NCBI RefSeq assembly: GCF_000013725.1 | Contig: NC_007955.1 | Span: 1,023,579-1,087,578, forward strand | Reading direction: 5' to 3' | Origin: Methanococcoides burtonii DSM 6242 | GTDB taxonomy: Archaea > Halobacteriota > Methanosarcinia > Methanosarcinales > Methanosarcinaceae | DNA length: 64,000 bases | In this document: in pieces, positions 4,553 to 6,502 of the stretch | How positions within the stretch are numbered: the first letter of the stretch is position 1 | Layout of the letters: each line of letters opens with the position of its first letter | Made by a program: the position numbers and the translations under genes | The notes under the pieces: generated by a model | Seen by the model: the letters and a program-made list of their open reading frames with translations, nothing else | Databases searched by the model: none | What the model was told of the DNA's origin: nothing

Positions 4553-6502
4553 TCATGCCAAAGGCAACATCATGTGGACCTTTGTACCTACATTTACCTC
4601 GCTTTCTACCCACATCTGACCGCTATTGAGGATTACCAGCTTTTTAGTAAGTGCAAGTCCAAGACCTGTACCGCCGTACTTTCGTTTGGTAGAACCATCG
4701 ACCTGATAGAACTTATCATAAAGATGCGGTAACTGTTCCCTGGGGATTCCAATACCATCATCAAATATCACAATATGCATCATATCGCTAATAGCACTTG
4801 CATGAATACCAACCGATCCATGATCGGAAGTAAACTTGACAGCATTTATTAAAAGATGATGCAATATATGTTTGAACTTTGTTTTATCTAACCTTATCGG
4901 ATGTAGTTCGGGATTAACATCACAAACAAAAGAAATATTTTTTAATGAAATCGAATGCATCAGAGACTCTTTTACCTCCATAACAGAAGGTAAGATACAA
5001 AAATCTTCCAAATTTACTTCTGCCTTTCCTGCTTCGATCTTTGAAATTTCAAGGATCTCATTTATGATCTCTGAAAGATGATTTCCATTATTTGAAACAT
5101 TCTGAACATATCTCCTCTGAACATCATTCAGACCCCCACACCGCCCATCCAACAATATTTCTGAAAAGCCAACAATGGAATTCAATGGAGTTCGAAGTTC
5201 ATGACTTACATTGGCAAGGAACTCGCTCTTAGAACAATTTGCTGCATCAGCTATCGACATTGCACGCTTTAAAGCATCCTCCGCTTTTTTAGTAACAGTT
5301 AAATCCCGCAGTGCAACAAAGATATAAGAAGGCTCATTATCGCCATCGAGGATGAGATTACATTCAAGGATCGCCGGGAAGATACTTCCATCCTTCCTCA
5401 TGTGCCACACATCTTCATTCTCACAGCCATCAGAACTTAAAAGTTTATCAAGAAGACGTTTCAAGTGCGGAACTTGCCCTTCATGATAGAACATCAAAAA
5501 ATTAATATTAAGAAGCTCATCAGCAGAATAGCCATGAAGTTGAGAAAATGCTTCATTCGCATAAATGATATTTCCATCCATATCAAGTACAGATATCCCA
5601 TAATTTGCCTTATAGGATATAGACTTGAATATATTCAGATCATTCTCAACAAGCTTCATTTCAACGAATTTACTCAGATAATGAGTAACCGAACCTACAA
5701 AACCCTCATTATCCCGGAAACGATCGCCATCCCCATCAGACATGTCTTCAGCATACCGGACTTCGAAATTCCCATGTACAACATTATCAACAATTATATC
5801 CTAACTACATCCCCAAATCGAATCAACGAAACATTCGGACTGAAATATATTGCCTTCATAAATTAGACAACAGCCTGTAACTGATCGATCCTTCAGATCA
5901 GAAAAAACGCTGTCAACTACTTTCTGAAATCCCTCATTCAGAGAAGGAAGATCATCAACAATACTTGAAACATTAAGCAAACATTCAAGATCACATACAT
6001 GTTTGTTCAGATCATGCGTCTGCATTTCCAGAACATCACAAACACACCTACGTTCAGTGATATCAAAAAATGTCATCGCAAACACGCCAATAGAAGAGGA
6101 GAAGGCATTAACTTCATAAAAACGATCACCCATGAGCGAATAATCATCAAAGTAAGCACTTTCCCCAGTCAATGCCACCTTGCCATATTTTTCAACCCAT
6201 GAGACATCCATATGAGGAAAAATATCCAGAACACATTTTCCGATAACATCGTCTTTCTTCAGACCTACAATTCTCTCAAAAGCCGGATTCACATTAAGAA
6301 AACAATAATTAATTGGAACTCCATCATCATTACAAATTATCTCATGTAAAGCGTATGCACAAACCATTTCATTGAATATCTGCGGATAAACATCCATTCC
6401 AACATACCCATCAGAAAGCCATCGCTCCGCACGATCAGAATCACGATCAATACGATCGAACACCACATCTGATTTCTGCTTTACTTCCCTTTCAGAAAAC
6501 AT
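4553..6502 (-). CDS. PAS-GAF-PAS sensor histidine kinase with an in-frame TAG codon
   Basis: Two open frames (5801-6502 and 4553-5743) are in the same frame and are separated only by one TAG at 5801-5803. Read through, they give ~649 aa: PAS (~50-155), a methanogen GAF-like domain (~165-260), a second PAS (~275-395), HisKA with SHELRTP (His434) and HATPase with N box INAVKF, DDGIGI and GGTGLGL. The TAG is codon 234, inside the GAF-like domain, and the sequence either side continues that domain without a gap (SIWGCS, TAG, DIIVDNVVHG, FEVRY). In pyrrolysine-using methanogens TAG can be read as an amino acid, so one full-length kinase is plausible. The alternatives are a nonsense mutation or two separate proteins; the downstream frame has an ATG 19 codons after the TAG but no evident ribosome binding site. 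No response regulator is adjacent. Confidence 0.8.

Follow-up and report, generated by a model that had tools for sequence, protein, structure and literature searches.

A private in-frame TAG, probably read as pyrrolysine and neutral in appearance, in a sensor kinase gene of Methanococcoides burtonii, and an invariant TAG in a separate clade of Methanococcoides kinases

Our analysis of a histidine kinase gene split by a TAG codon in M. burtonii DSM 6242 suggests that the gene probably makes one full-length orphan PAS-PAS kinase with pyrrolysine at position 234, and that this TAG, a recent replacement of the serine codon TCG, is tolerated and has no regulatory role. Judged from codon comparisons among relatives, a different clade of Methanococcoides kinases encoded outside the window (the window being the whole 64,000-nucleotide stretch of DNA that was analysed) is a stronger candidate than the window gene for functional pyrrolysine, or for dependence on pyrrolysine, in signalling.

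The minus strand from 6502 to 4553 holds a single 649-codon frame whose sole interruption is the TAG at codon 234, and the two open frames and single TAG described in an earlier sequence-only reading lie exactly where that reading put them. One open frame covers 5801-6502 (233 aa) and the other, in register with it, 4553-5743 (396 aa when started at its own, internal ATG); translation table 11 splits the gene into these two proteins. Its features, all on the minus strand, are as follows.

4553..6502, minus: sensor histidine kinase, 649 aa with the TAG read through as predicted (from ORFs, profiles and orthologues), domain order PAS, unassigned region, PAS, HisKA, HATPase_c
6047..6334, minus: first PAS domain, about residues 57-152 (weak Pfam matches)
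5600..6046, minus: region around the TAG, residues 153-301, "GAF-like" in the sequence-only reading, conserved in orthologues, no Pfam or PDB profile match
5801..5803, minus: in-frame TAG, codon 234; Ser TCG in three close congeners, Ser TCT in six others
5741..5743, minus: ATG (Met254), possible independent start of the downstream frame, no clear Shine-Dalgarno before it
5297..5599, minus: second PAS domain, residues 302-402 (strong Pfam match)
5027..5233, minus: HisKA domain, residues 424-492, H-box SHELRTPL (Pfam)
4559..4888, minus: HATPase_c domain, residues 539-648 (Pfam)
4856..4858, minus: N-box position 549, His (CAT) in M. burtonii only, Asn in 71 other aligned kinases
4814..4816, minus: codon 563, Ser TCG in M. 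burtonii, TAG in the three closest orthologues (L004, L005, L006)
4553-4555, minus: TGA stop

The gene is identified as a histidine kinase by a HisKA domain with its H-box and a HATPase_c domain with N, G1 and G2 boxes. Pfam thus bore out four of the five domains that had been read by eye (PAS, PAS, HisKA and HATPase); the fifth, a GAF domain around the TAG, was rejected for want of any Pfam or PDB-profile match to that region, and an AlphaFold model built from four aligned sequences was too poor (mean pLDDT 31.7) to judge it. The flanking genes, both named by eye, are an iron-sulfur oxidoreductase-like gene and a fasciclin-like gene on the opposite strand; neither a response regulator nor methylamine genes adjoin the kinase gene, which is solitary, and in this sense the kinase is an orphan.

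The M. burtonii genome, a single contig of 2,575,032 bases, has what is expected of a pyrrolysine decoder. The pyl genes, whose presence the sequence-only reading had named as the point to check, are all there: a tRNA-Pyl gene (pylT) with anticodon CTA, and pylS, pylB, pylC and pylD, the products of which score far above the curated NCBIfam cut-offs. In addition, both mtmB copies and two of the three mttB copies carry an in-frame TAG, and the species therefore combines tRNA-Pyl(CUA), PylS and PylBCD with TAG-bearing methylamine methyltransferases. We examined stop codons at non-overlapping ORFs of at least 100 aa in an 864-kb sample, about a third of the genome and including the window; among 748 ORF ends, 389 were TGA, 338 TAA and only 21 TAG, and the frame stayed open past a TAG for a median of 50 codons vs 10.5 for TAA and 13 for TGA. 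TAG is thus rare as a terminator in M. burtonii and is often found inside longer frames. A genus-wide code in which TAG stands for pyrrolysine is described in the literature of 2024-2025, and is not counted as evidence here.

Because of the pyl genes, the TAG-bearing methyltransferases and the scarcity of TAG terminators, read-through as pyrrolysine is the best reading of codon 234, and as the most likely fate of this codon the candidate read-through of the earlier note stands. The TAG would stem from a recent single C-to-A change that altered a serine codon, TCG, and would be tolerated because TAG is close to being a sense codon in this genus. Elongating ribosomes would meet the UAG at codon 234, where pyrrolysyl-tRNA is expected to compete with release factor; tRNA-Pyl(CUA) would decode it to give the full-length kinase with pyrrolysine where relatives have serine, and some ribosomes may stop there to leave a share of 233-aa product. 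TAG serves as a genuine stop in M. burtonii as well, at pylB (L049:12250-13362), where 42 open codons follow the TAG; the TAG end of pylB was noted before, as was the finding of only one release-factor homologue in this species (PMC2933860). With pylB ending in TAG, decoding at codon 234 is not assured, and its occurrence, its efficiency and the lack of a phenotype are what we infer rather than observe. RNA folding of the 104 bases from the TAG on gave no stem-loop or other structure (z = +1.58), and a structured element after UAG is not required for pyrrolysine decoding (PMC9499178, PMC2933860).

When 112 Methanosarcinaceae genomes were searched with the read-through protein, three congeners, M. 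seepicolus LLY and two Methanococcoides MAGs, proved to have full-length orthologues (78% identity), and six others shorter ones (55–58% identity). All nine run continuously through codon 234 and encode serine there, by TCG in the closest three and by TCT in the six; none has the TAG, which is private to M. burtonii. Unexpectedly, the closest three contain a different TAG, at codon 563, which is serine (TCG) in M. burtonii and asparagine or threonine in the six others; TCG and TAG were thus exchanged independently at two places in this gene in sister lineages. The sequence-only reading had taken sense codons throughout the close relatives, combined with a truncated product only in this strain, as a finding against it; at codon 234 this is indeed what the relatives have, but the nearest three carry a TAG elsewhere in the frame. 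In Nei-Gojobori comparisons of M. burtonii with the three close congeners, dN/dS was 0.17–0.19 before codon 234, 0.25–0.27 between codons 234 and 563, and 0.13–0.17 after codon 563. From these low values on each side it follows that the frame beyond each TAG is maintained, and both halves of the kinase are under purifying selection. With unbroken orthologues and a genome in which frames tend to stay open past TAG, the lone TAG between two open frames is more than a coincidence.

These comparisons bear on whether the gene is simply decaying, such that codon 234 would be a recent nonsense mutation and only the 233-aa fragment or an inactive kinase would be made. The serine found at 234 in all orthologues agrees with such a lesion, which is also the sole type that an amber-suppressing organism could tolerate, and so does the first N-box asparagine, a codon (AAT) shared by 71 other aligned kinases and replaced by CAT (His) in the M. 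burtonii copy only. This substitution, the one exception in the kinase motifs, may matter for activity; the motifs are therefore not all intact as had been stated, and the related claim that there was no other decay holds for the frame, which is otherwise open, but is weakened by the Asn-to-His change. This is one sign of relaxation, and early decay of the kinase may have begun. Against this, the gene has no frameshift and no second stop, its dN/dS is low throughout (0.13–0.27), the M. burtonii copy shows 16–18 amino-acid departures from the outgroup, not much above the 10–16 of the sister lineages, and all four lineages of the sub-clade have a TAG and have kept the frame. We consider decay unlikely.

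A division of the gene into two proteins is highly improbable. The first would be a PAS protein of 233 aa ending at the TAG and the second a PAS-HisKA-HATPase kinase starting at the ATG at 5743, and the downstream frame does have this ATG of its own and a complete kinase core; however, no clear ribosome-binding site precedes the ATG, the 19 codons from TAG to ATG keep conserved in-frame coding (VDxVVHGxFEV), and the orthologues are fused without exception.

A full-length kinase read through the TAG could still be of regulatory use, as the sequence-only reading had proposed in suggesting that its production depends on pyrrolysine supply and hence on methylamine metabolism. Such a switch, with full-length kinase only when pyrrolysine is plentiful, would gain from the placement of the entire catalytic half downstream of the TAG, and from the fact that the sister lineage also needs pyrrolysine for the full length though its TAG is at another position, as if the dependence and not the position were selected. 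This part of the earlier note nevertheless did not hold up well: the codon is private and a single step from the ancestral serine codon, nine of nine orthologues have serine there, the six further orthologues have no TAG at all, no stem-loop follows the codon, no methylamine genes adjoin the kinase, and genes with no link to signalling have private TAGs too. A coding-score screen of the 864-kb sample yielded roughly a dozen genes with a credible in-frame TAG and varied functions, for example those encoding a cis-prenyltransferase family protein, a group 1 glycosyltransferase and a GyrI-like protein. The cis-prenyltransferase family gene (L048:7461-8120) is present in all 11 Methanococcoides genomes (61–93% identity) and has the TAG in M. 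burtonii only; the glycosyltransferase gene (L037:12868-14040) has a TAG in M. burtonii and none in five congeneric orthologues, the codon being CAG (Gln) in the three congeners where it was read. These private TAGs look like what neutral single-step replacement would produce. With in-frame TAGs at about 1 per 20,000 codons (a rough estimate from the sample), that one 649-codon gene was struck in two lineages is unremarkable. We regard the switch as distinctly improbable; that codon 234 has no regulatory role is the expectation we prefer, as a function of the codon would not be needed to explain anything seen.

The closest known parallel is the tRNA-His guanylyltransferase Thg1, which has a TAG only in M. 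acetivorans, where it is translated as pyrrolysine that is dispensable for activity (PMC2933860); this TAG was acquired by neutral evolution (Heinemann et al. 2009, reviewed in PMC2933860). Like Thg1, the window kinase has a TAG private to one species, relatives with a sense codon and a host with the pyrrolysine machinery, and it is a protein unrelated to methylamine use; as expected of a neutral gain, the private TAG faces a relatives' sense codon one step away (TCG in three, with TCT in six). The two differ in that the pyrrolysine of Thg1 was physically observed whereas that of the window kinase is deduced from the gene, and in that the kinase gene gained a TAG twice, independently, in sister lineages. 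Nor is its TAG conserved, unlike those of MtmB, MtbB and MttB, which are read as pyrrolysine, conserved among isozymes and catalytic there. The TAG at codon 234 looks neutral, like harmless drift, and we place it with the Thg1 kind: a clean natural example of a stop codon drifting into sense use, in a type of gene that gene callers would cut in two.

The pattern is different in another group of kinases, to which the window kinase does not belong (it has glycine at the relevant column and falls outside the clade). Of approximately 150 best HATPase_c matches listed for 11 Methanococcoides genomes, 24 had an in-frame TAG, whereas none was found among about as many matches listed for 13 genomes of five other genera; a few TAA or TGA cases sit at the profile end, and the two that were read are normal terminators. 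In twenty of these 24 the TAG falls at a common site, KFTPENGxI-O-INA, on the strand that follows the N-box. As a check on bias, all 112 genomes were searched with the M. burtonii member's kinase core, in which lysine stood for the TAG; the best 20 matches (69–100% identity, at least 332 bits) all came from Methanococcoides, covered 11 of 11 genomes and had the TAG in 20 of 20 cases, while the next match fell to 279 bits and no other among the matches listed had a TAG. A DNA pattern of the motif with TAG was likewise found in 11 of 11 Methanococcoides genomes and in none of the 101 other genomes searched. The 20 kinases form a clade with support of 100 when the TAG column is masked. They have varied N-termini and range from 446 to 916 aa; the loci recorded for the clade, with its invariant TAG at KFTPENGxI-O, are L051:9302-10927 (the M. 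burtonii member, genome about 2425302-2426927), L078-L086, L088-L093, L095, L096 and L099-L101.

In other kinases this column is far from constrained, with 12 residue types and 3.22 bits, the 15th most variable of 223 columns. By parsimony, each nearby fourfold-degenerate site in the clade accounts for at least 3.9 changes (the likelihood tree length is 5.7); at that rate some 10 changes or more would be expected in a neutral TAG codon, and there has been none. The probability of zero changes is ~3e-5 if eight of the nine single changes are allowed, and 0.03 even if only 30% are. Both values presuppose that the tree is right and that sites evolve independently; the neutral expectation would be lower under gene conversion, which would, however, also homogenise the fourfold sites used. 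Only nine of 227 codon columns are without any codon change, including those of the H-box histidine, an N-box asparagine and the TAG. The codon before the TAG is always ATA or GTA, whereas elsewhere in these domains isoleucine is ATA in 23% of cases, and the constant A is suggestive of a possible 5' context effect on UAG decoding. A TAG that never changes probably matters, and it is a serious if still tentative possibility that selection acts on pyrrolysine, or on dependence on it, in Methanococcoides sensor kinases.

In a comparison by sequence alone, a lysine of Thermotoga maritima HK853 falls at this site or next to it. Lying perhaps on an exposed strand beyond the N-box, the residue might use its reactive imine to sense amines or ammonia, or might serve to bind a partner; another possibility is that the TAG makes full-length kinase conditional on the supply of pyrrolysine. 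Codon-level selection would look the same for pyrrolysine chemistry and for pyrrolysine-dependent expression, and TAG decoding is presumed throughout. Neighbourhood comparison found no recurrent methylamine gene or partner near these kinases; the M. burtonii member has an mtbB-like gene to one side and mttB to the other, but genes for transposase and integrase come in between. The clade resembles MtmB, MtbB and MttB in conservation of the TAG, not in function. To our knowledge, pyrrolysine is regarded as functionally required only in the methylamine methyltransferases, and codon-level purifying selection on a TAG in signalling proteins would make a wider role directly testable. If a selected dependence were true, the TAGs of the window gene, at different positions in two lineages, would be a milder case.

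Sensor kinases with in-frame UAG have been predicted before in Methanosarcinaceae. Cluster 16 of the predicted UAG genes groups sensory transduction histidine kinases from M. acetivorans, M. mahii and M. barkeri, and its UAG was proposed to be less than neutral because it was found in three species; the text names no M. burtonii member (PMC3639795). The window kinase is like cluster 16 in being a histidine kinase with such a codon. The invariant-TAG clade, which we compare with cluster 16 by description only, has a pattern absent from all 101 genomes of other genera searched.

The remaining TAG kinases use other sites. A smaller group (L087, L097 and L098) has a TAG at KFTPEGG-O-V in all three orthologues, two residues before the site of the invariant clade; in the alignment this is the column that holds codon 563 of the window gene's orthologues. 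One member has a second TAG at codon 86, and a paralogue-like relative, L159, has serine (TCA) at the TAG position. The L094 kinase (760 codons including the stop) has a private TAG in the ATP-lid region of its HATPase domain, GIGISPEDONKLF.
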